A DNA stretch of 44,418 nt from a virus. The notes under the pieces are model-generated. The model did not search any database. It was not told where the DNA came from and saw only the letters and a program-made list of their open reading frames with translations. The position numbers and the translations under genes were made by a program. How positions within the stretch are numbered: the first letter of the stretch is position 1; every line of letters begins with the position of its first letter. Of this stretch, positions 6,399 to 33,622 are shown piece by piece. Location of the stretch: positions 1 through 44,418 of the IMG/VR virus record IMGVR_UViG_3300021185_001090. One strand, 5' to 3'.

Positions 6399-9300
6399 AT
6401 GGCGATTCAGTTCTCGAACCTAGCTAGCACTTCGCTGGCTAGTGGCGTTTCCTCTACGGCAACGTCTATTAGTGTTACCAGCGCAGCTTCATTCCCTTCA
6501 TTGGGCAGTGGGGATTATTTCTATGCGACGTTGGGAGCGGGAACTGGTTCAGAAATCGTCAAGGTTACAGCCATATCTGGCACGACCTTTACTGTGTCTC
6601 GTGGGCAGGACGGCACTACAGCTGTCAGCCATTCGGCTGGAGGGGATGTAGCACTTAGGGTTACAGCTGGCGCTTTGGAAGACTTGCGTGACGGCGGTCA
6701 GGTCTATACTGCGGGCAGCGGTCTCGGTCTTTCAGGCAACGAGTTTACAAATACTGCGCCAGACCAAACAGTCTCTATCTCAGGATCGGGTTCAACCACT
6801 GTTACGGGAACGTACCCCAGCTTTACTGTCTCCAGCACCTCTTACAGTCACCCATCAGCCCACCCGATTAGTTTTATCACTGGGTTGCAGACTGCATTGG
6901 ACGGAAAGGTAGATGACTCTCAGGTGCTTACGGATGTTCCTGCGAACGCCCTTTTTACTGATACCGTATACACGCTTCCGTTTACTGATAACTCGTCTAA
7001 CTGGAACACAGCTTATGGATGGGGCGATCACTCCACTGCTGGCTACTTAACCAGTCACCAGTCTTTGTCTGGCTATGCTACTGAGACGTATGTTGGCACG
7101 CAGATAACAAACCTTGTTGATTCTGCTCCAGCGACAATGGATACGCTTAACGAGCTAGCCGCTGCGCTGGGTGATGATCCTAACTTCGCTACTACTGTAA
7201 GCACCAGCATCGGTACAAAGCTACCCTTGTCTGGCGGCACACTCACAGGCGCTCTGTCAGGGACTACAGCCACTTTTTCAGGCAACATAAATGCTGAATC
7301 AGATATTAGAGTAGGCACAGCCGCTGGCGCAATTAACCAGACAGGTATTATTAAAGAAAATGGCAGTGCTTATGGATTAGGGTTTTTTACATGGGGCGAT
7401 ACTGCTCCAGTGCAGATTGGTGGCGGCTCCGTAAACCTCCAAAAAGAAGCAGGCGGCGGTGTAGACCTCAAGATTAGCGGCACTACAGTAATAGACTCTA
7501 GTCGCAACCTGACCAACATAGGGACATATACTGGTCAAGGGTTAGCTACAATTACTAACTCCAGCAATCAGCATTTACGACTGGCTTACTCCAGTGGCTT
7601 TTACTGGAATATTTACAGGGAATCAACAACGGGCGACCTTGTTTTTGATAGCTCAAACACAGCAGGCGAGTTTGTTCGGTTTGATGCAGTAGATAAAACC
7701 ATATCGACAATAGCTGGATACAAAGTAAACGGCACTACAGTAATAGACTCTAGTCGCAACCTGACCAACATTGGCACGATTGGCTCTGGAGCAATAACCT
7801 CAACAAGTTCAATGAATGCCGCAGGGGGCTATTACGTTTCTGGAACTGAGGTAGTGACCGCTAGCCGCAACCTGACCAACATTGGCACAATCTCATCGGG
7901 CGCGATTAGCATCAACGGCATAGACCAATCTATAGTCGCCCAGCGCGACCTGTCTTCATCTAGCAGCGGTTGGAGTGGGCGGATCATCAGCAAAAACGCC
8001 ACCACCAACGTCGCCTCTTTCCTGGGCAACTACAAGGGATATGCGGGGCTTTTTGCGCATAACGCCGCGCTCAATGGTTGGGCACCGATCTATATCAACG
8101 CTCATTCCGGTTCGGGACAAGCAAACGTATATACCGGCTCTCTTTACGTTAATGGGAACAACTTAGCATGGCATGCAGGTAACGACGGCTCAGGCTCTGG
8201 TTTAGATGCTGATCTGCTTGATGGTACACATAAAAGTGGGTTCTTTGTTCAAAGTGGTTCGTGGTTAGGTGATTTAGGAAGTAATGGATATACCCGTGAA
8301 AACGGATTAAGTATGACCGGTGGTTCCGAATTTGTAGTTCTATCAAAAGGTGGTCAAGGTACCGTTTTAGTTGACGGACAATATATATCCTACGAAGGTA
8401 GTAATGGATTTTTTGGTTCATATAATTCAAGTTATGCTAATGCTGCAGGTATTAGAGCAACAGCCGCAAGTACAGTAACTGTTCAAAAATTAAATGGAAA
8501 TAATGCTAATTTAGCAGTTACAGGAAACATAACTAGGTCTGGTAATACAGTTTGGGATGCAGGCAACGATGGCTCAGGCTCTGGTTTAGATGCTGACACC
8601 GTTGATGGTCTTCAAGGTTCACATCTAGATCAAAGAACATATAACAGTGCCAACGCTTATCTAGGGTCACACTACATTAACGGCGGTACGGGTCAAAAGC
8701 CAAACAATTCTTTACTGGGTGCCGGTAAATTAAAGCTGTCTATGCAAGGCAGCGGTAACTTAGGTTTTGGTGGCTCATGGAATGATGTGTTGTGGATGTC
8801 TAGCTACACTGGAACTGATGTTAAGAAAAGCACTGCTATAGTTTCTAGTAAATATGACTCAACTAGTCTATTCGTGGCAAAACAAAACTATGACTCTGCA
8901 ACTTGGGGAACAGGGTATCTGCTTTGGAACACTGGCAACGATGGCTCAGGCTCCGGTTTAGATGCAGATACCGTAGACGGCATCCAAGCAAGTAGTTTCT
9001 TGAGAAGCGATGCGCTTACATACAGTAACAACAATATTGGCAGAGCAAATCATCATCTAGGTCATCTTGTTGGCGCGTATAACAATGTCGGGGGAAATAG
9101 TGCTAGACCTAATCCTATTTACAGTATCGGAACTTCCTACCTCCCGACTCAATCCGGCTTATCAAATTTTTATGGAGTAGGCTTTGCCCACGCAAACCTA
9201 TGGGGTTCGGGTAAAACAGCAGGATGGGGTCTGTATACCACCGATGCAGGAAACGTAACATTCACAGCGGGATACTCTGGCGGAACAAGCGGAATTGGCG

Positions 9301-10961
9301 TTTGGTCGCAAGGCAAGTTTGTCTCAACCCCGCAAGGCACTTTGTGGGGGTCGTCAAACGACGGTTCTGGCTCAGGGCTTGATGCTGATCTGCTGGATGG
9401 TCAGCACGAAACAGCATTTGTAAGAGTTAGTACTGGTATTTCTAGTGACCTCAATAGTTCAGCACTCTATAGAGCAGGGATGTTTGGTTGGAGTGGTGGA
9501 ACATCAAACAGACCTTCAGATAGCTACGGTCAAGCTATAAGCATTGTAAGTGAAGGTAGTTCGCACAACAATTTAAACAACTGGATAACGCAACTTGGAT
9601 TCGGCACTGGTCAAAACAGTGCGTATTTTAGAAGCAAAACCAACGCTGGAGGTTGGGGTGACTGGCGAACATTTTGGCACACAGGCAACGACGGCTCAGG
9701 CTCAGGCTTAGACGCTGATACTGTTGATGGCGTTCATGCCTCTCAAATTGTACAAAAAACTGGTGTTCAGGCTATAGCTGGCGATCTTATCTTGGGTGGA
9801 AACGGACAAACTCCAAAGCTACGTCTGGAGTATAACGATCACGGCAGCGGGGCTGTTTGGGACACTACCATACACATGGGGCGTACTGCTGATTTGCCAA
9901 GTGGTAGTAGCGCTCCGACATATACTGCTTCTGGTGGGTATGGGGTGCAGTTTCAGGCTAACTCTGATGGTTGTTTTTACGGTATTGAGGAGTATTCATC
10001 GGGGAACTACAGACCTTTAATTAATTGGGGCGATGATACAGGCGATACGCCGTTTAGGATTGCGTTTAACAATGCGACTAAATTTTCACTTTATGGTAAC
10101 GGTGATTTCACTGCCAATACCTCGCTGCGCGCCCCCATCTTCTACGACAGCAACAACACTGGCTACTATGTAGATCCAGCATCTACCAGCAAGATGTGGT
10201 ACTTAGAAATGCCTCACAGGGCTAATGGCACCGAAAATATAAAAGTTAATAATGGGCAGGGGGAAAACTGGAGGGCTATTAATATATCGATGGGCGGAAG
10301 CGACAACGCTGGCATTGGTTATGGTAACAATACTCGGTCTGTGTTTAATCGCCACAATCTTGCAATTCATTGCTCTCAGTATGACTCAATAAGATTGCAC
10401 AGCGATGGATGGACTACCCTGTTTGAGGTTGCTGGAGGCAGTGGAGATGCTTGGTTGAAAGGGCAGCTTCAGGCGCAGACGTTGAGCTTAGCAGGTCCAT
10501 CAAACACAAACTATGCTTCCCCTAATGTTAAATCATACGGGTCTTCAAACTCTGGTGGCGTAGCTAACTACCACATGAAATTCATGGCGCTGAATGGCAA
10601 TGCAAACGGCAGCATTAGCACCAACTACTATCAAACCACTTACGCCACGACTTCCGACTACAGGGCGAAGGAAGACTTTCAGCCGATAATTAACGCTACC
10701 AGCAGGTTGATGTCATTAAACCCTGTCAACTTCCAGTGGAAAGACAGCGATATGCGTACTGACGGCTTCCTTGCACATGAAGTTGCAGAGGTCGTATCTG
10801 ATGCTGTGGTTGGCGAGAAGGACGCTGTTGATGAGCAAGGCAATGATGAGCTTCAGGCTTTAGACCAAAGCAAACTTGTACCACTACTTGTAAAAACTAT
10901 TCAGGAGCAGCAGGGCGTTATTGAGGCGCTTGAAGCTCGTATATCAGCCCTTGAGGCATAA
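6399..10961 (+). CDS. Large tail fibre with C-terminal S74 self-cleaving chaperone domain
   Basis: 1520 residues, the main receptor-binding candidate. The N-terminus (about 1-80) is a small domain for tail attachment. The middle holds three units around SRNLTNIGT (about residues 370-510) and five copies of the linker NDGSGSGLDAD followed by an Asp-Gly (DNA near 8178, 8562, 8934, 9354, 9682). The linkers are separated by unlike 110-140-residue cassettes that probably bind different glycans. A conserved FYDSNNTGYYVDPASTS segment lies near residue 1243. The last about 100 residues are an intramolecular chaperone of the S74 peptidase type: TTSDYRAKEDF has the Ser1419/Lys1424 dyad, followed by DGFLAHEV and SKLVPLL, and a trimeric coiled coil at the end. 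S74 domains cut themselves off after fibre trimerisation. Confidence 0.9.
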   Translation: MAIQFSNLASTSLASGVSSTATSISVTSAASFPSLGSGDYFYATLGAGTGSEIVKVTAISGTTFTVSRGQDGTTAVSHSAGGDVALRVTAGALEDLRDGGQVYTAGSGLGLSGNEFTNTAPDQTVSISGSGSTTVTGTYPSFTVSSTSYSHPSAHPISFITGLQTALDGKVDDSQVLTDVPANALFTDTVYTLPFTDNSSNWNTAYGWGDHSTAGYLTSHQSLSGYATETYVGTQITNLVDSAPATMDTLNELAAALGDDPNFATTVSTSIGTKLPLSGGTLTGALSGTTATFSGNINAESDIRVGTAAGAINQTGIIKENGSAYGLGFFTWGDTAPVQIGGGSVNLQKEAGGGVDLKISGTTVIDSSRNLTNIGTYTGQGLATITNSSNQHLRLAYSSGFYWNIYRESTTGDLVFDSSNTAGEFVRFDAVDKTISTIAGYKVNGTTVIDSSRNLTNIGTIGSGAITSTSSMNAAGGYYVSGTEVVTASRNLTNIGTISSGAISINGIDQSIVAQRDLSSSSSGWSGRIISKNATTNVASFLGNYKGYAGLFAHNAALNGWAPIYINAHSGSGQANVYTGSLYVNGNNLAWHAGNDGSGSGLDADLLDGTHKSGFFVQSGSWLGDLGSNGYTRENGLSMTGGSEFVVLSKGGQGTVLVDGQYISYEGSNGFFGSYNSSYANAAGIRATAASTVTVQKLNGNNANLAVTGNITRSGNTVWDAGNDGSGSGLDADTVDGLQGSHLDQRTYNSANAYLGSHYINGGTGQKPNNSLLGAGKLKLSMQGSGNLGFGGSWNDVLWMSSYTGTDVKKSTAIVSSKYDSTSLFVAKQNYDSATWGTGYLLWNTGNDGSGSGLDADTVDGIQASSFLRSDALTYSNNNIGRANHHLGHLVGAYNNVGGNSARPNPIYSIGTSYLPTQSGLSNFYGVGFAHANLWGSGKTAGWGLYTTDAGNVTFTAGYSGGTSGIGVWSQGKFVSTPQGTLWGSSNDGSGSGLDADLLDGQHETAFVRVSTGISSDLNSSALYRAGMFGWSGGTSNRPSDSYGQAISIVSEGSSHNNLNNWITQLGFGTGQNSAYFRSKTNAGGWGDWRTFWHTGNDGSGSGLDADTVDGVHASQIVQKTGVQAIAGDLILGGNGQTPKLRLEYNDHGSGAVWDTTIHMGRTADLPSGSSAPTYTASGGYGVQFQANSDGCFYGIEEYSSGNYRPLINWGDDTGDTPFRIAFNNATKFSLYGNGDFTANTSLRAPIFYDSNNTGYYVDPASTSKMWYLEMPHRANGTENIKVNNGQGENWRAINISMGGSDNAGIGYGNNTRSVFNRHNLAIHCSQYDSIRLHSDGWTTLFEVAGGSGDAWLKGQLQAQTLSLAGPSNTNYASPNVKSYGSSNSGGVANYHMKFMALNGNANGSISTNYYQTTYATTSDYRAKEDFQPIINATSRLMSLNPVNFQWKDSDMRTDGFLAHEVAEVVSDAVVGEKDAVDEQGNDELQALDQSKLVPLLVKTIQEQQGVIEALEARISALEA
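8178..9720 (+). repeat. Five near-identical fibre linker repeats of about 36 bp
   Basis: The DNA coding for GNDGSGSGLDAD recurs at about 8178, 8562, 8934, 9354 and 9682, spaced 384, 372, 420 and 328 bp. Copies are close to identical at DNA level (for example the shared core AACGACGGCTCAGGCTC with one or two changes) while the cassettes between them are unrelated. Such repeats could let fibre cassettes be exchanged by homologous recombination. Confidence 0.85.
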
Positions 10962-13679: not shown

Positions 13680-16600
13680 ACCAAACAACAAAGGGAACAT
13701 GCCTGTCCCTCAAGGCTGGGCAGGGCAGGACCGTAGATTTGGCGAGACCATCAAGAACAATCTTGATGTGCTGTCTGGCTTCAGCGGAAACCCCTTAGAC
13801 AAAGCGGTTACCATAAGAGACCTGCTGGATAGCGGTATAGCTAGACTAGCATCCGGTTACACCATTTTCTCTGGGGACAGTGACTCCATAGCGCCATCGA
13901 CGTTCTATCCGAATCTAGACACACCTCCAGCCCCAACCAACCTTGCAGCCAACGGTGCGTTTCAGAACATCCTGCTGACATGGAACTTACAGCTATTTTC
14001 CGGACTGGCTTATCAGGAAGTGTTTAGGCACACATCCGACAGCGTGTCTGATGCGACGTTGATAGGCGTGGTGTCAGGGTTTAATGGAATCTACTCCGAT
14101 AATGTCGGAGGATCGGCAAGCTATTACTACTGGGTAAGGGCAGTAAACCAGAACGGTGTTGCTGGACCATTCAATTCTAGCCAAGGGACGCTCGGTACTA
14201 CTCAGCCTGATATTGGCTATATACTTCAGCTGCTAACTGATCAAATAACAAGCTCTCAACTGGCTCAATCGTTAGCCACACCTATAGCTCTGATAACTCC
14301 TTTAGACGGCAAGGTATCAGGTATAGAGACGTTCTTGGGCTACACCAGCACGTACTCTGGAGACAACATACTGACCCGTCTAGGCGGCACTGAGGGGGTG
14401 GCTAATGCAGCCTCCTCTGGTGTTACATCGCTTAACAGTTCTGTGTCAAATTTAAGCACGTCAGTCGGCAACCTAGCCGGAACGGTACAAGACCTGACAG
14501 CCAACACGGGCACCGTTTACTTCCAAGCCAATGCTCCGACAGGGACCATAGCAACCAACTCTCGATGGTATGACAGCGACGATAATAACAAGCCGTATTA
14601 TTATAATGGGACTTCTTGGGTTTCGATTGCTGACCCTACTATCGCGGCTAACGAAGCGGCTATATCTGCACTCAACGCTGAAGTTTTTGTGGCTGGCTCC
14701 ACGACTCTTAAGTTGGCTACCTCAAACGCTCTTGGTGTTCTTGATGCAACCGTTGTAAATCTTAACGGGACGGTAACCTCTATAGCCTCTGACGTTACAA
14801 GTCTAGAGGGGGAGGTCTTTAACTCTGATGGTTCTGCGAGACTGGCTACAGGAGCATCCCTAACAAGCCTGACAAATACGGTAACCACCCAAGGCAATAA
14901 TATATCTAGCGCTCAGTCAGACATTACTGACCTCGAGGGTGAGGTTTTCAATTCTGACGGCTCTGCACGCTTGGCGACTGGAACTGCTTTAACAGGTCTG
15001 ACCAACACTGTCAGCACTCAAGCCGGAACAATTACTTCTATCCAGACAGACGTTACAGCGCTGGAGGGGGAAGTATTTAATTCAGACGGGTCTGCAAGAT
15101 TGGCTACAGGGTCTGCACTTACCGGCGTAACCAATTCCGTAACGGCAATCTATGACGGTACAAACGCCAGTGTTGTTAAAAGCGTGCAGGATGACGTCAC
15201 CTCTTTAGAGGGTGAAGTCTTTAATTCGGATGGCTCTGCTCGACTGGCTACTGGGTCTGCTCTGACAGGATTGACGAACAGCGTCACAGCCATATATGAC
15301 GGCACAAACGCCAGTGTTGTTAAGAGCGTACAGACTGATGTGACAGCTCTCGAGGGCGAGGTGTTTAACTCTGACGGCTCTGCAAGGCTTGCCACCGGAG
15401 TCGCCTTGAACGGAGTAAGCAACTCGGTAAGCGCAATTTACGACGGCACCAATCCCAGTGTGGTTAAGACTGTTCAGGACGACGTGACTACACTGAATGG
15501 CGCTGTTTTTGATTCCAACGGCGACGTTATTCTAGCAACCTCGGCAGCAGTTTCTACGCTTACCAGTGATGTTGAGGCGATCTATGACGGCGGTAACCCC
15601 AGTATTCTAAAGACGGTACAGAATGACGTTACCGACCTTGACGGTGAAGTGTTTAAAGCAGACGGATCAGCTCGACTCGCAACAGGTTCTGCGCTAACGC
15701 TTCTTACCAACGAAGTGAGAGTTATCTATGACAACACGACCAATCCCCCAACGGGTCTTGTTAAGTCACTTCAGGCGGATGTAACTACCCTCGATAGCGC
15801 TATGTTTAACGAGAACGGCACGTCAAAGCTAGCATCTGCTGGGGCAGTGTCTCTGCTCGAGACAAATGTCTGGGGTGCAGGTGTAACACCCAGCGGGTCA
15901 ACCTCGTCACGAATTGATACTCTCAACAATGCTCTTACTCATCCTACCTCAGGTCTTTCAGCCACCAGTGATGCAGTGTCCGTCCTAAACTCCAGCGTGT
16001 ACGGCGACGGGGTGACTCCCGCAGCAGGCGCCAGCAAGATTGACGCTCTAACTACGGCTGTGTTTGATTCTCAGAATAATGTAAAGCTCGCGGATGCAAA
16101 CGCTTTTAGCGAGCTTCAGACGGAAGTTTTAGGTAACAGTAATGCTTCAGCCTCTCGTATTGACGGTCTATATACAGCGCTTTATGACGACGACGGAGCC
16201 CTGTTTGCCTCAGCTGCCGGTCTAGAGACTCTCGAGACTACAGTGTCTGGCTCAGGCGGACTGGTGGATAAAACCACAAATCTAGCAGCCAGCATGTTCA
16301 CTAACGGGGTAGATGGCGCGTTAAATCTAGCTACAGCTGAGGCATTTAATAATTTAAGGGCTGAAGTTTTTCCTAACGGAGGAAGTACGTCTCGAATAGA
16401 CCAGCTATCAACAGCTGTCTGGGACGGAGGCGATCCGACCAATGGAGTTGCTCTAGCCTCGGCTGACTTTGCAAGCAATATAAACTTGGCAGTCTTTGGT
16501 GACGCGACGGATCAGTCTGCATCAGCAAACAAGATCGATACCCTTCAGGTGGTCGTGCAGGGGGCTGACGGCAATGGCGGAATCAAGAGCGCGATAGAGA

Positions 16601-21848: not shown

Positions 21849-24800
21849 ATGCCGTTAAAGTCTGTAACTCAGTTTTCTGAAAGCGAGTACTACGCAGCCC
21901 GAGATGCCCTATTAGAAGACGAAAGCAACAGCCTTCAGCCTACTGAAGGTCAGCCTGATCCCGCTCCAGAACTCGATCCAACTCTAGACGCAGCACCAGA
22001 CACCGCAGGCAATTTTAGCCGTGGGTTTAGTAGCGGCGTTGACAACATGCAGGCTTTGTATGGCGGCGGTAAAGCCCTGCTTGGCTCGGCATTTAACAAT
22101 GAAGAGATGGTTGCTGAGGGCATGGCTTACTATCAAGAGAAGCAGGCTGAGGCACAACAAAACCTTCCAGACTCTACCTTTGGCGACATAGACAGTGCGT
22201 CAGATTTTGGTGCGTGGGCAGCATACACTTTAGGTTCGGCTGTGCCAGACCTAGCAGGCATGGTAGTTGGTGGCGGACTAGCAACCTTGGCTACTAAGGC
22301 GGTTGTAAAGAAGGGCGCAACAGAGTTTGCTGAGAAGTACGCAAAAGACAAAGCGGAGGCGCTGGTCGAGCGTGGAATTTCGGAAGAGGTGGCGCAGTCT
22401 GCATCTAAAGAAATTGCGGACAAAATAGTTGCAGACCAACTTGCAGGGATTACCGCCAAAGCAGGCACTGTGGGTGCCGGTCTCTATGCCGGTCAGCAGG
22501 GTGCGTCAAGCACGTTTGCAAGAACTCTCGAAGAGACTGGAGAAGAGGCGCCAGTTGCTGCGCTAGCTTCAGGAACTCTTCAAGCCGCAATAAATGCTAT
22601 ACCAGTAGGCGTAGCTTTAACCAAGTTCCTGCCTAAGGGCAAGTCTGATGATGCGGTTGAGTTTATATCTGGCTCTATCAGCGATAAGGGCGCGTGGTTT
22701 GGCAGCTTCCTAAAAGATGTAACGGCTCAGTCAGGAATGGAAGGAGCCACCGAAGCATTGCAGTATGTTGTTGAGGAAGAGGTAATCTCTTACGTAAACA
22801 ATAACTTTACAGAGAATGAAAAGCGGGAATACTTTGACTATATAAGTAACGAAAGGAAGCGTGCAGGCATAATAGAGCAAGCTGCTGGCGGAACTCTGTT
22901 TGGTTTTGCTACAGGCAGCGCAGGCGCTGGCGTTAAGGCTGCAACTGGAGGTTACGACAGTGATGTAAATATGGGCGATGGTGCAAAGATAATTCGCACC
23001 CAGTCTGTCAATGATCCCGAGTTTGGCGCCCGCATTAGGGAAATGTATGACCGAGCTAAAGATGACGCAGCCAACGGTCGCACAAGCCTTGGCGAGATGG
23101 TCCCAAGTGAGCGCCCTATTGATCCAATCACTGGCGAGTTAGCCACAACATGGAACGCTGAAGGCGCACTAGACCCTGAGACCAATCGCCCTTACACAGA
23201 AGAGCAGCTAAACCAAGCCATACTGTTAGACTTCAATGCCGCCGAAGAGCCTATCGATCTTCCCGAAGGCGATCTTCCAGAGCCTGCCGTGTCTGCGGAT
23301 ACGCAAAATACCGGATTCGGGGAAAATACATTACCCCCTTCACCCCAGCCCCCGCAGGCAGACATAGTAGATGACTTCAAGCCAGCCCCAGCATTTGGGG
23401 GTGTAGCTGTATCCGAGGGTACACGAGACGCAGGTCCAGCACATCGATGGGATGGCGAGCTATCTCCAGTCGATCAGCCAGTTCAAGAGCAGCTTATGCA
23501 GCTGTCTATGAAGGCTGCGACTCCAGAAGCAATGGACCCAAACAACACCGATGTGATTGTAGAGGCTATAGATCAAGACGACGTGGACAGAATCTTTGAT
23601 CGAAATGAATCGTTAAAGATTGCCACCACCGATAAGCCTAAGGGCAAGAGCCTGCCTACGATAGATGAGGTTTATGGTAATGACGCTGCTCAAGTAACAA
23701 ATAGCGTAGCGGGCGTTATGGCTGATCTGTCGGCTAATGGTGTGCCAACGTCATTTATGGATTCAGTCACTGGGGTGTATGTACACAAAGAGTCTGAGGT
23801 TGATGCTCCGGCTCTGACGGGTCGTAGCGCTAGGGGTATATCTGTCAATCAAGACTTACTTAGCGGCTCACTCACTGATTCCGAGCAGTTAAGCGAACTG
23901 GCATGGACCATGACGCACGAGGTCTATCACGCCGCAGACTTTGCAATGGGTTTAAGTGATAAGGATAGTCGATTCGGTATTGAGATTGATGAGGCTGCTG
24001 ATGCACCTACGGTTGTTATGGGTGACATCATGCAGGAAATCTACGACAACTGGGTGGACGGCACAGCTGTTGGTGAGAGGTTTGACTACCCATTTAACAA
24101 CCTTGTCGATGATATAGAGAACCTCGAGAAAGATAACGCAGGCTTGAACGTAAACTACAGGGAAGAAGTGTTCGCGCAGCTTGGCGCACTATTCCACTCA
24201 AACCCTAAACAACTACAAGAGCTGGCTCCGCAAGCGTATAATTACATTAAGGATATTAGAGACAGCAACCTACAAACTGCCGTAGTGCAGGAGACCGCAA
24301 ATGAACCGAGTCCAAGTCAAGAGAATCCCGACACCACCCAACCTGAAGGCATATCAGGAGAAGTTCGGGCACCGCCAGAGTCCGGAAGCATCGAGGTCGT
24401 ACAGCCTGAATCAACTGGATCAGATGGCGAAGCAAGCCTTGGAGATGGGAGAGCCGATACCTCAGTGGAGGGACAGGTCCAAGAAGAAGCTGGACAACGT
24501 GAACGACCAGCAGTACAAGAACCTAAAGTAAAAAAGAAGAGCATAACCGAACAGAACGTAGAGGCGTCTCGGCAGTATGCAATAGCTCAGGGCGAGCAAG
24601 GTTCTGATAACAAGTTCTACACCCCCGCACTTAAGAAAGATTTTCTCGAGGGATTCCGTCAGGGATACGCCAATACTTTGGGCATGGTCTATCAGCCTGA
24701 CGAAGCCGGAAGCATTGGGGCAGACAAAAGCATTCAGTTCAGTGAGGGATATTACGCAGGCAATACCACCCTACGCGATGAAACATCTGCCAGAGATCAG

Positions 24801-27800
24801 GAAGAATCAGGCGGATCTATTGAAGGAATGCGGTTTTCTGAAACCGAAATCAACAACCCTGCCAATGCGGTTGATGACATTCCCATAGAGATTACTAAGC
24901 CTGCTGCTAAAGGTAAGTTCACCAAGTCACCAAACTGGCAAGATACTGGGAATCTTGTTGCCACTTTTGCAGACGGCGACCGATACACTGTCTACTTTGA
25001 CGATCAAGCTAAAGATGCTGGAGACGAGGTTTATTACACCTCTGTAGACGGCAAGATTCCGGAAGATCAGGCTTCGCTTGGGCAAACTCAGGCGGAGGCT
25101 CTACGCGGACTGCAAGAGCACCGGCAAAAATTATTTGATGCGGGGGAGAAAACCTTTAACACCCCGCTAGATCCTGACGTAGGGAACGAAGTAGAGTTTA
25201 AGGCATGGAGCTTTATCGATGAAAAAGGTTCCGTGACTGAGAAGCAGCTGCGTGCGAAGTTTAAATCTCTCGAAGACAATCAGTTTGAAAACTTGAAAGA
25301 TCGCCTCACATCTATGGACAATCCAGATGAGGCAGTCGTATTCGAGGATGGGAGATACTATGCGCCAGACACCTATCAAGAAAAGATCTTCGGCGAGTTG
25401 GATGACCCTAGCTTTGTCCTCGCTTACAAGCCCCCAAGACGCACAAAGAACGGCAAGTACGTAGGCTCTCCCGCAGGGATAGATACGCCTGCCAAGTTAG
25501 CTCGCATCCGTAGATTTGTTAAGGAGCTTGCCAAGCAGGGAGAGTACGGTAGGTTCTGGTATGAGCGTTCAGGAAGAACAGTGCTAGAGATTACTGGTGG
25601 TGATGTAGAAGAAGCTAAGAAGATTGTTCAAGCAATTGCTATTACTTCTCCCAGCACGCCTGTGGACACAAACTACGAGTATGCCATTCAGGCTTACTAC
25701 CAGTGGAAGAACGGTCAACCCATAGAGACAGGAAGATTTCCTAAATCCATGGGTGAGAAGATCACCAAGGTATTTAATGGTGAATCTTGGTCAGGTAGAA
25801 AGACTAACAACTTTGAGCAAAACCTTCTTAGATCAATTGATGATTCTCTAGATCAGGGTGTAACTACAGACCTGTGGATGATGCGTGCCTTTGGGTACAC
25901 GTCGGATGCTGCTACCGATCTCAACTATGACTTCGTAGAAAACGAAACAATCCGCATCGCGGAAGATTTAGGCTGGGAGCCGCAACAAGTCCAAGCTGCT
26001 ATCTGGGTAGAGATCAAGTCTAGAATGGAGTCAAAGCAGGTTAAGGCTGAAGTAGATAAAAAGTCTGAGCTGAAGGGTAACTATAAGTGGGTTACAGAGA
26101 AGGGCAAAAAGATACGTAACTTTAAAGACCTTGACTCTGAGAAGGCGCACAGCACGTTGTGGGTTAACACGGCGTTAAACTACAAACCGACAGAAGCCGA
26201 GCGTAACACTGCGAAGTTTGACTACAGGGATGCCACATTAAACAAGATGGCTCAGGTATCTGTAGAGTCGATCCCGTCAACAAAGTCTGGTCACTTTCCT
26301 GAAATCTTTAGTGCGTCTCAAGGCGAGATACTGGAGTATCACCACGCCATTGAGCAGGCGTTTTTAGATGACAATGGGGTGGACATTGTAGCCAAGGAGC
26401 TTGGCTTGCTTCAGATGGGCAAGTCTCAGGGTATTGGCGCTTGGGAAGGACGTAACGATCCAGTAACGCAGAACGAGATTGTTCTACCGCGACAGTACAG
26501 AGAAAAAAACGACGGCGTTGTGTCTGACGATGCTAACGATTTGGTCGCAGCATACGCAGCAGTCAAGGGTACGCTGTTAAAACAAGACGGTGTTGGTTGG
26601 CACAGACCTTTCTTTAAGAAGTCTAATACCAAAGCCTCACAAAATGGCATGCACGTTTCCATTGGCAGACCGCTAAACATGCGAGAAACAAGAGAGTTGT
26701 CAGCAGCTCTAGATTCTTACGGTCTTGGCGGCAACATAGTCTCTACTCAGGATGGCGTGCGGGTTATAAACTACAGTGACGAGAGCGGAAACCCGTACAG
26801 CGGTCTACCTAACTTCAAAACTGGTAAAAATAATCTTGACTTTAAATATGCTATAATTAACAGTGTCGAGGCAATGAGCTTTGACGGTGACCTTGACGCA
26901 GAGGTTGTCGGCTTTGTTTCTGCAAACGACTTACTAGAAAATGACTGGACGGAGAATAAGAATGGCGAAGGTTACCTACAGGGACGCCTTAGAGAACGAC
27001 CCGATCTACAAGGAAGGGTTTCAAGTCTCATCACACAGCTACAGCCGAGAGTACGTGAAGTCGAAGCCGAGTTCGCAGGAACCTACGGATGGACAAGAAA
27101 CAATGACCTCAACAGAGACTTCGGCGGAGCAGTAGACGAACCCTCTTTCATAAAGAGAAAGATCAATAACGCCAAGAATAAAACTCTAGACGATGGATCT
27201 CCATCCACCAATGCCTTTAGTCACAACGACGAGGCAGATGGTCAGTCGGACATGTACAAAAGGCTCAAGAAGAAGCCTGCATTTAAGTCCTTAGTTGACA
27301 GATACGCCCCCTTAGAAGAATTTGAGAATCAAGCCGCAGACTATCTTGAGTATGGTCGCCTGCCTGCTGAGCTATCACCGCGAGATCAAGAGAATCTAGC
27401 GCACGGCAAGGTCCAGAATGATCTGAATGCATTATACGAGAATTACGTTGACCCGATTGGCGACTTAATTGCTGAGCTTAAGCTGGACCCAGAGGCAATC
27501 GGAACTTACTTGATAGCTAAACATGCAGCAGAACGGAATGACGTTATTGCTGCCAAAGTGAAAGCCCAGCGAGATAAAAACATTGCCAGAGTTGAGAAGG
27601 AGATAGATCGACTCTTGTCAGATACTGGCGTGGATCACACCGTCGCGCTAGAGACGCAGCGTTTCAAACTTGATAAATATAAAACCATGCCACTAGCATT
27701 CCAAAACAATGGCTCAGGCATGACCTATGCACAAGCTGAATCAGTCCTGCGTTTGGCTGAGAAGGAGGGCACTAAAGCCGACGTAGAAAAAGTAGCAGCC

Positions 27801-30071
27801 AAGGTCTACGACATGCTTCAGTATCAGCGGGATCGTATGGTAGAGGCAGGTTTGCTTGACGAAGACTCCCGTGCAGACTGGGAAGATACTTACGAGTTCT
27901 ATGTGCCCCTTAAGGGTTTTGCGGCAGAAGAGAAGGGCGATCAATATACACGAACCGCCAAGGCTAGAGGATTTTCCATAGTTGGCAGTGAAAGTATGAA
28001 GGCTAGAGGTCGAAAGACTCTTCCGGTCAACCCGCTGTTTAGTGCGATTGAAGATGTCCAGATGAAAATAATTCGGGCGAGAAAAAATGAAACCGCCCAA
28101 ACCTTTTTGGACCTACTTAGCAAGCTGGGTAACAGTGACAGCTACACTATATATAACAATAAGTTCAGACCACCCAAGCGTAGTGACGAGCTGACCATGC
28201 AAGACATGGATGAGATGAAGAATGCGAGAAGGGTTAATGGCGACCCTGAGTATGTTCAGGTAAAGAAAGGTGGGCAGACGTTCTTTATACACTTCAAGAG
28301 CGACGAGCTTAACCATGCGCTACAGGACATGAGCGTAGCGATGCTTGACCGTAACAACACAATCATGGACGGCGCTTTAACCTTCGCAACTAAGTTCCAG
28401 ACGTTTAGGCGAAACATGCTAATCAACTACAACCCGTCGTGGGGTCTGGTGAACCCAATGCGTGATGTTGCTACGGGTCTTATCTATGCGCTAGCAGAGT
28501 CCGATAAAAAGGGCAGCAGAACGCAGGGCAAGAACCTTGTAGGTGCTATGGCAAAAAGCTACGTTCCAGCTCTGCGGTCAATGTATAGAGTGTTACGAGG
28601 AAAGCCTATTCGTAAGAACACACTCGACCAGTACGCCGCTGACTTCATGGCAGACGGTGCATCCACAGGCATGATGCTAGTAAAGGATCAGGCTGAGCAG
28701 CTGAGAATCCTAAAAAACAAACTTAAGAAAAGTAACACTAGAGACTCTCTTAGGTACATAGCTAAATGGGTTGAAGACTTTAACACTCAGATGGAGAACG
28801 GTGTTCGCCTCGCGGCTTACGTTGAAGCGAGAAAGGTAGGCACAGACAAGCAGACAGCTGCTACCTTAGCGAAAGACCTGACAGTAAACTTTAACCGTAA
28901 GGGTGAGCACACTGCTCAAGTAAACGCTGCATTCCTGTTCTTCAACGCATCTATTCAGGGCACTGTCAACATAGCTCAGGCTCTGGGTAGTAATGACGGC
29001 AAGAAGGTTACCAAAGCTAGAATAGCAGCTGCAAGCATGGTTGCCATTGGTGCAGCGGTTGCATACGCCAACATCATAACTTCTGATGAAGACGACGATG
29101 GCGAAGCTGATTACGCGGACCTCCCTGAGCACGCAAAGAATCGTGCCCTATTGATGATGTACGGCAATGAGGAGGGCTTTGCGTTGCAGCTTCCTTATGG
29201 CTACAACTTCTTTACCAACATCGGTCGGCTTTCTGCTGAGATGGCTATGGGAATAAACACTCCAGAAGAAACAGCGTTTCATTTGGCTAACAACGCGATG
29301 CTTAACTTTATGCCAATCGCGCCTGCGTCAGGAGACTCGTGGGAAGAGAAGATGAGAGGTTTCTATCCTGACATGCTGGAGGTCCACCAAGACCTTATGG
29401 CGAACAAGAACTTCTTTGGGAGCGAAGTCTATATCGAGCAGAATCCGTTTTTGGTTGAGCGCTCAGCGGCGTATAACTCAAGACGATCTACACCAAAGGC
29501 GTTTACAGCGACTACCGAGTTCCTCAACGACGCCACAGGGGGTGATAAGTACGAGGACGGGTTTGTATCTATCAACCCAGACAAGATGAAGTATGTGTAT
29601 GAATACTTCCTTGGGGGTGTAGGTCGATTCGTAAGCCAGTCATCAGACGTTGCGTCACGAATGCTTATGGATGAAGACTTCAGAAAGCAAGACCTTCCAG
29701 TTGTTGGAACCTTCTTTGAGAGTCCTTCCGAATATGAGGACAGATTTGAGTTCTACGATAACGCGGATGAGACAGAAAAGGTCATAAAACGATTTTCAGA
29801 AGCCAATGAAGATGGAGACTTAGCTGCTCTGCAAGAGCTTAACCAAAAATATCAATCTTTCGCGCCTTTGATTAATGGTGGAAAGCGTAGCCTTTACAGG
29901 AGAGCAACTAGAGACTTACGAAAATACGCAGCGAATCGCAAGTTGGTAATGAGACAAGATATTACTATCGAACGGCGTAACGAAATACTCAAGGCTATAG
30001 ATGAGCGAGAGAATCTGACATTCGACATATTCAACAAGGCTTACAGGAAAGCCGAGAGAGAGATGAAATGA
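21849..30071 (+). CDS. 2740-residue polyvalent internal virion protein with HExxH motif
   Basis: The largest gene, about 305 kDa. A hydrophobic stretch (about residues 122-151, DLAGMVVGGGLATLATKAV) could enter a membrane. At H690-E691-V-Y-H694 stands a zinc metallopeptidase motif (TMTHEVYHAAD), with an EE pair at 772-773 before FAQLGALF as a possible third ligand. A disordered linker rich in Pro, Glu, Gly and Ser follows (about 812-897). Residues about 1200-1400 (YGRFWYERSGR, then ITSPSTPVDTN) resemble DUF7178 of phage polyvalent proteins, and about 2190-2420 (NYNPSWGLVNPMRDVATG, FNRKGEHTAQVNAAF, FFNASIQG) resembles LPD38. Such proteins are packaged and injected with the DNA; gp16 of T7 is the positional counterpart, but no lytic transglycosylase motif is seen. 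A GGTGAG ribosome site precedes ATG. Confidence 0.75.
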   Translation: MPLKSVTQFSESEYYAARDALLEDESNSLQPTEGQPDPAPELDPTLDAAPDTAGNFSRGFSSGVDNMQALYGGGKALLGSAFNNEEMVAEGMAYYQEKQAEAQQNLPDSTFGDIDSASDFGAWAAYTLGSAVPDLAGMVVGGGLATLATKAVVKKGATEFAEKYAKDKAEALVERGISEEVAQSASKEIADKIVADQLAGITAKAGTVGAGLYAGQQGASSTFARTLEETGEEAPVAALASGTLQAAINAIPVGVALTKFLPKGKSDDAVEFISGSISDKGAWFGSFLKDVTAQSGMEGATEALQYVVEEEVISYVNNNFTENEKREYFDYISNERKRAGIIEQAAGGTLFGFATGSAGAGVKAATGGYDSDVNMGDGAKIIRTQSVNDPEFGARIREMYDRAKDDAANGRTSLGEMVPSERPIDPITGELATTWNAEGALDPETNRPYTEEQLNQAILLDFNAAEEPIDLPEGDLPEPAVSADTQNTGFGENTLPPSPQPPQADIVDDFKPAPAFGGVAVSEGTRDAGPAHRWDGELSPVDQPVQEQLMQLSMKAATPEAMDPNNTDVIVEAIDQDDVDRIFDRNESLKIATTDKPKGKSLPTIDEVYGNDAAQVTNSVAGVMADLSANGVPTSFMDSVTGVYVHKESEVDAPALTGRSARGISVNQDLLSGSLTDSEQLSELAWTMTHEVYHAADFAMGLSDKDSRFGIEIDEAADAPTVVMGDIMQEIYDNWVDGTAVGERFDYPFNNLVDDIENLEKDNAGLNVNYREEVFAQLGALFHSNPKQLQELAPQAYNYIKDIRDSNLQTAVVQETANEPSPSQENPDTTQPEGISGEVRAPPESGSIEVVQPESTGSDGEASLGDGRADTSVEGQVQEEAGQRERPAVQEPKVKKKSITEQNVEASRQYAIAQGEQGSDNKFYTPALKKDFLEGFRQGYANTLGMVYQPDEAGSIGADKSIQFSEGYYAGNTTLRDETSARDQEESGGSIEGMRFSETEINNPANAVDDIPIEITKPAAKGKFTKSPNWQDTGNLVATFADGDRYTVYFDDQAKDAGDEVYYTSVDGKIPEDQASLGQTQAEALRGLQEHRQKLFDAGEKTFNTPLDPDVGNEVEFKAWSFIDEKGSVTEKQLRAKFKSLEDNQFENLKDRLTSMDNPDEAVVFEDGRYYAPDTYQEKIFGELDDPSFVLAYKPPRRTKNGKYVGSPAGIDTPAKLARIRRFVKELAKQGEYGRFWYERSGRTVLEITGGDVEEAKKIVQAIAITSPSTPVDTNYEYAIQAYYQWKNGQPIETGRFPKSMGEKITKVFNGESWSGRKTNNFEQNLLRSIDDSLDQGVTTDLWMMRAFGYTSDAATDLNYDFVENETIRIAEDLGWEPQQVQAAIWVEIKSRMESKQVKAEVDKKSELKGNYKWVTEKGKKIRNFKDLDSEKAHSTLWVNTALNYKPTEAERNTAKFDYRDATLNKMAQVSVESIPSTKSGHFPEIFSASQGEILEYHHAIEQAFLDDNGVDIVAKELGLLQMGKSQGIGAWEGRNDPVTQNEIVLPRQYREKNDGVVSDDANDLVAAYAAVKGTLLKQDGVGWHRPFFKKSNTKASQNGMHVSIGRPLNMRETRELSAALDSYGLGGNIVSTQDGVRVINYSDESGNPYSGLPNFKTGKNNLDFKYAIINSVEAMSFDGDLDAEVVGFVSANDLLENDWTENKNGEGYLQGRLRERPDLQGRVSSLITQLQPRVREVEAEFAGTYGWTRNNDLNRDFGGAVDEPSFIKRKINNAKNKTLDDGSPSTNAFSHNDEADGQSDMYKRLKKKPAFKSLVDRYAPLEEFENQAADYLEYGRLPAELSPRDQENLAHGKVQNDLNALYENYVDPIGDLIAELKLDPEAIGTYLIAKHAAERNDVIAAKVKAQRDKNIARVEKEIDRLLSDTGVDHTVALETQRFKLDKYKTMPLAFQNNGSGMTYAQAESVLRLAEKEGTKADVEKVAAKVYDMLQYQRDRMVEAGLLDEDSRADWEDTYEFYVPLKGFAAEEKGDQYTRTAKARGFSIVGSESMKARGRKTLPVNPLFSAIEDVQMKIIRARKNETAQTFLDLLSKLGNSDSYTIYNNKFRPPKRSDELTMQDMDEMKNARRVNGDPEYVQVKKGGQTFFIHFKSDELNHALQDMSVAMLDRNNTIMDGALTFATKFQTFRRNMLINYNPSWGLVNPMRDVATGLIYALAESDKKGSRTQGKNLVGAMAKSYVPALRSMYRVLRGKPIRKNTLDQYAADFMADGASTGMMLVKDQAEQLRILKNKLKKSNTRDSLRYIAKWVEDFNTQMENGVRLAAYVEARKVGTDKQTAATLAKDLTVNFNRKGEHTAQVNAAFLFFNASIQGTVNIAQALGSNDGKKVTKARIAAASMVAIGAAVAYANIITSDEDDDGEADYADLPEHAKNRALLMMYGNEEGFALQLPYGYNFFTNIGRLSAEMAMGINTPEETAFHLANNAMLNFMPIAPASGDSWEEKMRGFYPDMLEVHQDLMANKNFFGSEVYIEQNPFLVERSAAYNSRRSTPKAFTATTEFLNDATGGDKYEDGFVSINPDKMKYVYEYFLGGVGRFVSQSSDVASRMLMDEDFRKQDLPVVGTFFESPSEYEDRFEFYDNADETEKVIKRFSEANEDGDLAALQELNQKYQSFAPLINGGKRSLYRRATRDLRKYAANRKLVMRQDITIERRNEILKAIDERENLTFDIFNKAYRKAEREMK
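24301..24531 (+). CDS. Candidate embedded gene, out of frame inside the polyvalent gene
   Basis: A 76-residue frame, +1 to the host gene. It starts with ATG preceded by AGGAG at an ideal 7 nt. Its product is rich in Gln, Lys, Asn, Leu and Tyr, with a plausible helix (SLNQLDQMAKQALEMGEP) and a Trp, and ends in a Lys-rich tail. The host frame over exactly this stretch is low-complexity linker rich in Pro, Glu, Gly and Ser. This is what overprinting looks like, but chance cannot be excluded without a comparison across related phages. Confidence 0.4.
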   Translation: MNRVQVKRIPTPPNLKAYQEKFGHRQSPEASRSYSLNQLDQMAKQALEMGEPIPQWRDRSKKKLDNVNDQQYKNLK

Positions 30072-32457: not shown

Positions 32458-32540
32458 TGTTTTCTCCTCAATATAACCAGCCATAACCTTGCGGCATGAA
32501 TCTGTAAGTTATTGATTTAATTGAATAAAAAAATATATTA

Positions 32541-32595
32541 GAGCAGTTGCTTCGTAAGCAATTGGTCGGAGGTTCAAGTCCTCTTTCCGGCACCA
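32541..32595 (+). other. attP core: 3' part of tRNA-Thr(CGT)
   Basis: 55 nt that fold as the 3' 72% of a tRNA, from the 3' side of the D stem (GAGC) to CCA. The anticodon stem GTTGC/GCAAT encloses the loop TTCGTAA with anticodon CGT. The T arm GGAGG-TTCAAGT-CCTCT follows, then the acceptor strand TTCCGGC, discriminator A and CCA. The 5' part (acceptor 5' strand and 5' D arm) is absent: AT-rich phage DNA stands in its place. This is the standard phage copy of a tRNA gene end that restores the host tRNA on integration. The integrase gene lies 69 bp away. Confidence 0.9.
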
Positions 32596-32625
32596 TTTCT
32601 TTACTTATCAATAGGTTACAGCTGT

Positions 32626-32662
32626 TTAATTATCGTTTTGATTGTGATTAATTATCGTTTTG
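32626..32662 (+). repeat. Two 15-bp direct repeats, candidate integrase arm sites
   Basis: TTAATTATCGTTTTG occurs exactly at 32626-32640 and 32648-32662, a 22-bp period (close to two helical turns), between the att core and the integrase stop. Lambda-type integrases bind such repeated arm sites with their N-terminal domain. Confidence 0.7.
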
Positions 32663-32663
32663 G

Positions 32664-33581
32664 TTAAATTATTCCTTCAATATTTGACGATGCGATCTGT
32701 CTTTGGGCTTGGTTAAGATGGGCGTATCTTTGCAGTGATTTGCGATCCTTCCATCCTCCCAGTTCCATGAGAACCATTTCGCTCGTCCCCCTCTGGATGT
32801 GCCAACTAGCAAATGTATGACGCATTGTGTGGAAGGTTACCCCTGCTGGTAATCCAGCTTCACGGCAAGCCTTCTTGTAGGTTTTGTTATTGATCTCACT
32901 CAACACCTTGCCTACCTTGCTGCCACCACCTACCTGCTGAACAAACACATGATCTATTCCGTTACGGAGATACATATGCTTTTCAACGAGGGCGTCATTC
33001 AGAGCTTTGCGACGTTCTAGTACTTTCTGAGCATCTCTGTTCAGAGGTATCAGAATGTCTTCGCCCATCTTGGCATCCTCACCGGAAACATTTAGAGCAG
33101 AAAAGTCTGGCTCTACTTGATCCCACTTCAGAAGCCTCACGTTAGATGCTCGCAGTCCTGTTGAGACTGCAAACCTAACCATGTCGGCTCTCAAATCATC
33201 CAAGATACAAATCAGTCTCTGAATCTGCTCAGGCTTCAAGAAGAGTTTACTCTTCGTCTCAGGGTACACAGACAACTTAGGGACTCGATCAACATGCTCT
33301 TTTGAGAGGGCGTAGTTGAGGATAGACCGGAAAGTTATGATGTGCTTATTGACCCAGCTGTTGCTGACTTTTTGACCAATTCTCCTTTTGGATGGTTGCT
33401 TCCGCAGGTTCTCTATAAAGTTATCGATAAGAGCGATCTTCTCGAATTCCTTTACCGGCGTAGAGCCAAACACCTTAACAAGGTTGTTAGCTGCTATGAC
33501 CGTGGTCCTCTGCTTCTCTTCATTGTGTGCGCTTGGCTGTGCCAAATAACGCTCAGTTACTTCTTTAAATGTTAAGTTCAT
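32664..33581 (-). CDS. int: Tyrosine integrase
   Basis: 305 residues, average for a phage tyrosine recombinase. An N-terminal SAM-like core-binding domain (about 5-105) precedes the catalytic domain. All catalytic residues are in place: Arg144 (TGLRASNVRLLKW), Lys171 (DAKMGED), His251 and Arg254 (HTMRHTFAS), Trp277 at the His/Trp site (GGWKD) and the nucleophile Tyr286 (LQRYAHL). It inserts the phage into, and with helper proteins removes it from, the host tRNA-Thr. ATG 33605 is open in frame but has no ribosome site; ATG 33581 has GGAGA 7 nt upstream. The gene stands last in the leftward operon direction and has its own leader. Confidence 0.95.
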   Translation of the reverse strand: MNLTFKEVTERYLAQPSAHNEEKQRTTVIAANNLVKVFGSTPVKEFEKIALIDNFIENLRKQPSKRRIGQKVSNSWVNKHIITFRSILNYALSKEHVDRVPKLSVYPETKSKLFLKPEQIQRLICILDDLRADMVRFAVSTGLRASNVRLLKWDQVEPDFSALNVSGEDAKMGEDILIPLNRDAQKVLERRKALNDALVEKHMYLRNGIDHVFVQQVGGGSKVGKVLSEINNKTYKKACREAGLPAGVTFHTMRHTFASWHIQRGTSEMVLMELGGWKDRKSLQRYAHLNQAQRQIASSNIEGII

Positions 33582-33622
33582 ATTCGTCTCCGTGAACAGA
33601 GACATGCCGCGATGTCAGATTA
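33582..33622 (-). promoter_or_regulatory. Integrase leader with -10-like TAATCT and GTCTC/GAGAC dyad
   Basis: Read on the minus strand, TAATCT (33622-33617) is preceded by GGTGT, and lies upstream of an inverted pair GTCTC / GAGAC (about 33587-33606) that overlaps the ribosome site. The 9-mer ATTAACACC (plus strand) and the GTCTCCGT and GAGACAT half-sites also occur in the promoter of the annealing gene. The -35 is poor, so activation may be required. Confidence 0.45.

Follow-up and report, generated by a model that had tools for sequence, protein, structure and literature searches.

The 57 nucleotides at positions 32539-32595 of the window (the whole stretch of 44,418 nucleotides analysed here) are almost certainly the attP core of a temperate tailed phage, whose attB would be the 3' part of a host tRNA-Thr(CGT) gene, the exchange taking place in the anticodon loop. 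The fragment itself amounts to the 3'-terminal three quarters of a threonine tRNA gene from bacteria, and it stands beside the integrase of a marine temperate phage.

A tRNA-Thr(CGT) fragment between phage arms

The initial annotation had read 55 nt, at 32541-32595, as positions 22-76 of a tRNA with anticodon CGT deprived of its 5' part, and had proposed this fragment as the core of a phage attachment site adjoining an integrase gene. The 55 nt are present as described, and the reading is borne out by the complete tRNA-Thr(CGT) carried by each of the 15 bacterial contigs that match them. The identity starts two bases earlier—host genes have GGTAGAGCAG at the left edge where the window has ATTAGAGCAG—so that TA at 32539-32540 also belongs to the shared block, which thus covers 57 nt, i.e. 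tRNA positions 20-76. The 5' half is indeed absent from the window: ARAGORN found there no complete tRNA or tmRNA, and Rfam gave no match at the gathering score, a relaxed search yielding a sub-threshold tRNA match over the fragment (23.3 bits for a cut-off of 29). As a single strand the fragment folds better than shuffled sequences (z -2.8), and the core occurs once in the window. The integrase gene is intact and faces the core by its 3' end; the distance between them, annotated as 69 bp, is 68 nt. The features of this region are the following:

32480..32538, + strand: P arm, conserved in the alignment of relatives; contains GTAAGTTATTGATTTAATTG at 32504-32523
32539..32595, + strand: attP core, 57 nt, identical to positions 20-76 of the host tRNA-Thr(CGT)
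32546..32562, + strand: anticodon arm, read from the sequence; presumed role
32546-32550 and 32558-32562, + strand: stems of the anticodon arm, likely core-type sites of the integrase
32551-32557, + strand: anticodon loop TTCGTAA, likely 7-bp crossover region
32553-32555, + strand: anticodon CGT, as read
32568..32595, + strand: T arm, 3' acceptor strand, discriminator A and CCA; invariant to tRNA position 75 in 11 distinct relatives; presumably rebuilds the tRNA on insertion
32593-32595, + strand: CCA, as read
32596..32663, + strand: P' arm, from core to integrase, conserved in the alignment of relatives
32623-32643 and 32645-32665, + strand: direct repeat in the P' arm, possible arm-type sites
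32664..33605, - strand: tyrosine integrase, 313 aa, intact (PF00589, E 8e-25; phrog_1 integrase)

Related integrases are encoded at 27 loci, and six other viral contigs carry the exact 55 nt, flanked by these same two arms. In the 11 distinct related phage sequences whose core has the same direction, no variation occurs in any of the 46 columns that correspond to tRNA positions 30 to 75, whereas the invariant columns number 8 of 20 in the left flank of the core and 2 of 20 in the right one. This constancy of the core between varying flanks, added to the 55 nt exactly shared with complete tRNA genes, excludes a chance resemblance. The proposal of an attachment core is likewise upheld, by the position of the fragment between conserved phage arms and by the host gene that is occupied by the module of a relative (see below).

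The two limits of the tRNA identity behave differently. On the left, it begins in the relatives at position 20, 23, 27 or 30, never later, which places the exchange at or to the right of position 30; on the right, the CCA end is included in every relative with the core in this direction. A crossover within the anticodon loop predicts precisely a variable left limit and a CCA that is always kept: the sequence to the right of the crossover has to rebuild the tRNA, whereas the sequence to its left is free of this requirement, hence a variable left edge and a fixed right one. From these limits, the crossover would thus be situated in the loop. We found no phage relative with a complete tRNA at the attachment spot, and a search for host-flanked proviruses, among viral contigs carrying the tRNA 5' half and the anticodon arm, gave none.

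The integration might then proceed as follows. The tyrosine integrase, presumed to be active, would recombine attP with attB, which corresponds to the 3' portion of the only tRNA-Thr(CGT) gene of the host, the strand exchange occurring within the loop TTCGTAA, between the two 5-bp halves of the stem. The 5' half of the host gene would join the 3' half borne by the phage; as the phage carries the last three quarters of the gene, the tRNA gene would be left whole by the insertion. The P' arm and the integrase would end up directly downstream of the rebuilt tRNA, and the original 3' half would be displaced to the opposite extremity of the prophage, as attR.

The arms themselves show some repeats. 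Two tandem 21-nt copies (TGTTTAATTATCGTTTTGATT), at 32623-32665 in the P' arm, could be arm sites of the integrase; the second runs into the stop codon of its gene. Inverted repeats of arm type between the P and P' arms are seen by eye, and are not significant against shuffles in most phages.

The candidate host gene, occupied and empty

About 85,000 species genomes were scanned for the exact 55 nt, which turned up on 15 contigs, one in each of 15 species genomes; on every one of the 15, ARAGORN calls a complete tRNA-Thr, anticodon CGT, and the 55 nt form its 3' end. All these genomes are MAGs, titled Gammaproteobacteria, Pseudomonadales or Proteobacteria. The 15-mer of the anticodon arm occurs once in each of them, at the coordinates of tRNA-Thr(CGT) where these were compared. 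The annotation had predicted that a tRNA-Thr(CGT) gene would end in such a match, with a prophage inserted in some strains. The match was found as expected and was confined to plausible hosts; as for the insertion, the site is occupied in one MAG, G001, by a relative of the integration module, and empty in a sister MAG, G008.

In G001 (cluster3_bin.144), the contig L002 displays a clear attL: a complete tRNA-Thr(CGT), then the P' arm—90% identical to that of phage L027—then the 3' end of an integrase, and stops 131 nt past the tRNA. Another contig of the same MAG (L057, contig C109) carries, in this order, an integrase remnant, an aldehyde dehydrogenase gene, the final 17 nt of the tRNA, and the downstream flank of the host gene. 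The remnant lacks about residues 87-237 and is about 91% identical in nucleotides to positions 32697-32895 and 33346-33600 of the window; the attachment copy next to the downstream flank (attR) has decayed to these 17 nt. G008 (SI034_bin123) has an empty site: its tRNA-Thr(CGT) is uninterrupted and stands between both flanks, which share 94% identity with those of G001 along 5.4 kb on the upstream side and 1.4 kb on the downstream side. The sites of G002, G010 and G014 are empty too, with flanks about 79-87% identical over long stretches.

The occupied site of G001 is an old insertion, by a relative of the window phage and not by the window phage itself. L002 and L057 are unjoined in the assembly; their synteny with G008 suggests that both belong to one insertion, and since the integrase 3' ends in G001 have different neighbours, tandem elements or a mixture of strains might also be involved. 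Within L057 (183-2600), the internal deletion of the integrase remnant leaves an open frame of 168 aa, the aldehyde dehydrogenase gene lying before the decayed attR.

The tRNA had been expected to name the host directly. On its own it does not, since the 55 nt are present in more than one lineage; combined with the remnant and with the distribution of the matches, 9 of 15 falling in the 15-genome Pseudomonadales genus of G001, it narrows the host to this one genus. A close integrase was found in G001 alone, in a search covering its genus, 201 genomes of the family and 392 drawn from the order; the other integrase relatives in family and order are just 33-37% identical, and the tRNAs called near the more distant integrases of the family are Gly, Ser or Glu and Gly, not Thr. 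These comparisons point to the genus of G001, presumably marine as we read its isolate names (codes of the Saanich Inlet, Fram Strait or Delaware Bay type), and the window phage itself probably uses it, the other lineages with the 55 nt being possible hosts as well. For an uncultured group of phages devoid of a close isolate, such a genus, in which one genome has the site occupied and its sister has it empty, constitutes a host lead.

That the core is rightly identified and the window phage nevertheless lives outside this genus, for example in one of the six other exact-match lineages, seems to us rather unlikely, with arguments on both sides: six of the 15 matches lie outside the genus, the P' arm of the remnant is nearer to that of L027 than to that of the window, and no intact prophage of the window phage was seen in the genus; against this, the genus holds the majority of the matches and the only close integrase. 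The sets of the family and order likewise gave no intact prophage, the window itself carries no host flank, and capsid relatives present as prophages amount to one weak match in the 201 genomes of the candidate family. The tRNA-Thr(CGT) was unmatched in six other genomes of the genus, which has little weight as these drafts are possibly incomplete. Isolate phages provide no host name, their matches being absent or distant: none by megablast to positions 20001-44418 of the window, integrases all under 60% identity (27-36% among the matches listed), and capsids at 43% or less among the matches listed.

Two further readings deny that the fragment is an attP core. A lone 3' tRNA fragment is what the attR end of an integrated prophage carries, and the contig of the window is without end repeats, so the fragment could have been captured together with some host DNA. 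We hold this to be very improbable: phage sequence lies on both sides of the fragment, with arms conserved in six other viral contigs, the integrase adjoins it, its single copy has no 5' half in the window, and its left side is unmatched by the host flanks of the 15 genomes. As for a decayed cargo tRNA gene unrelated to attachment, many phages do encode tRNA-Thr genes, but its chances are practically nil given a surviving part that is perfectly conserved and abuts the integrase, a sequence entirely unrelated 5' of position 20-30, and a relative's module in exactly this host gene.

Kinship with P22 and other tRNA-integrating elements

The window phage belongs in all likelihood to the temperate phages integrating in tRNA genes, and among them to the anticodon-loop class, of P22 type: its 3' tRNA part is that of a complete host gene, an intact integrase is adjacent, and the identity starts within or ahead of the anticodon stem. 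Salmonella phage P22 uses thrW, a tRNA-Thr(CGU), the same isoacceptor as that of the window, and is joined in the thrW-type group by SfV, HK446, HK542, ES18 and the CP4-6 prophage. The 3' portion retained is the same, the core of P22 corresponding to positions 31-76 of thrW and that of the window to 20-76; thrW 31-76 is exact in P22 and in the majority of the 107 phage records that gave a match. In E. coli, thrW is annotated as tRNA-Thr(CGU) and houses the prophage CP4-6, annotated from tRNA position 28.

The layout is also shared, core then an oppositely oriented int with its 3' end facing the core, and the catalytic domains are homologous: the R, H-x-x-R, W and Y motifs align. On the other hand, the integrases are only 32% identical over 200 aa, 68 nt separate core and int in the window against 14 nt in P22, and the two phages differ by host group and virion genes. 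The target that P22 has in thrW also serves an unrelated phage, whose integrase is distant.

Beyond phages of this type, the Islander database counts 3760 islands that bear a 3' fragment and 2083 whose site is centred on the anticodon (PMC4383910). These tDNA islands, with their restored gene and displaced 3' fragment, resemble the window phage, nothing essential differing. In the tRNA-dependent lysogeny of actinobacteriophages the tRNA is not rebuilt and a whole tRNA is brought by the phage (PMC10865867). The window phage has in common with them a tyrosine integrase and an attB overlapping a host tRNA gene, whereas it carries the full 3' part that would rebuild the tRNA, and encodes no tRNA.

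Relatives with an inverted core

One strongly supported clade of integrases, 77-80% identical (L033-L035, L043, L040, L041 and L046), has P and P' arms that are still alike, while the anticodon arm between them is reversed relative to int and to these arms. The tRNA match is there reduced to 18-26 nt (positions 19-44, 26-45 or 28-45), the 3' half being lost. The inversion is not one assembly error, as several metagenomes contain it, in at least four different sequences. Next to the inverted core, L040, L041 and L046 also bear the arm a second time, in degenerate form.

The arm TTGCTTCGTAAGCAA and its complement TTGCTTACGAAGCAA differ solely in the middle three bases, those of the anticodon; with a palindrome making up the remainder of the 15 bp, these three alone would decide which way the phage inserts. 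In the 15 candidate genomes, tRNA-Thr(CGT) is the only exact 15-bp target (coordinates where compared). Since the 3' half is missing, an insertion at this gene would break it. A tRNA-Thr(TGT), which could read the codon of tRNA-Thr(CGT), is present in G002, G010 and G014, and we propose that the broken gene might be tolerated for this reason. No lysogen of the clade was found, so that this whole scheme—reverse insertion into tRNA-Thr(CGT), directed by the anticodon bases, with a broken gene compensated by tRNA-Thr(TGT)—is advanced as a tentative hypothesis, the odds being in our opinion somewhat against it. These relatives are similar to tRNA-dependent lysogeny in not rebuilding the tRNA (PMC10865867); they depart from it in that no phage-borne tRNA was seen in their records, which are incomplete. 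The clade with the reversed core offers a natural test to separate the anticodon arm, for recombination, from the rest of the fragment, for keeping the tRNA working.

Elsewhere in the window, a protein of 2740 aa (21849-30071) with LPD38 and DUF7178 domains is a large polyvalent phage protein, probably ejected. A tandem 144-nt repeat in three copies (15049-15480) lies in a tail fibre-like gene of 1416 aa, and five spaced 66-nt repeats (8167-9738) in a gene of 1520 aa.
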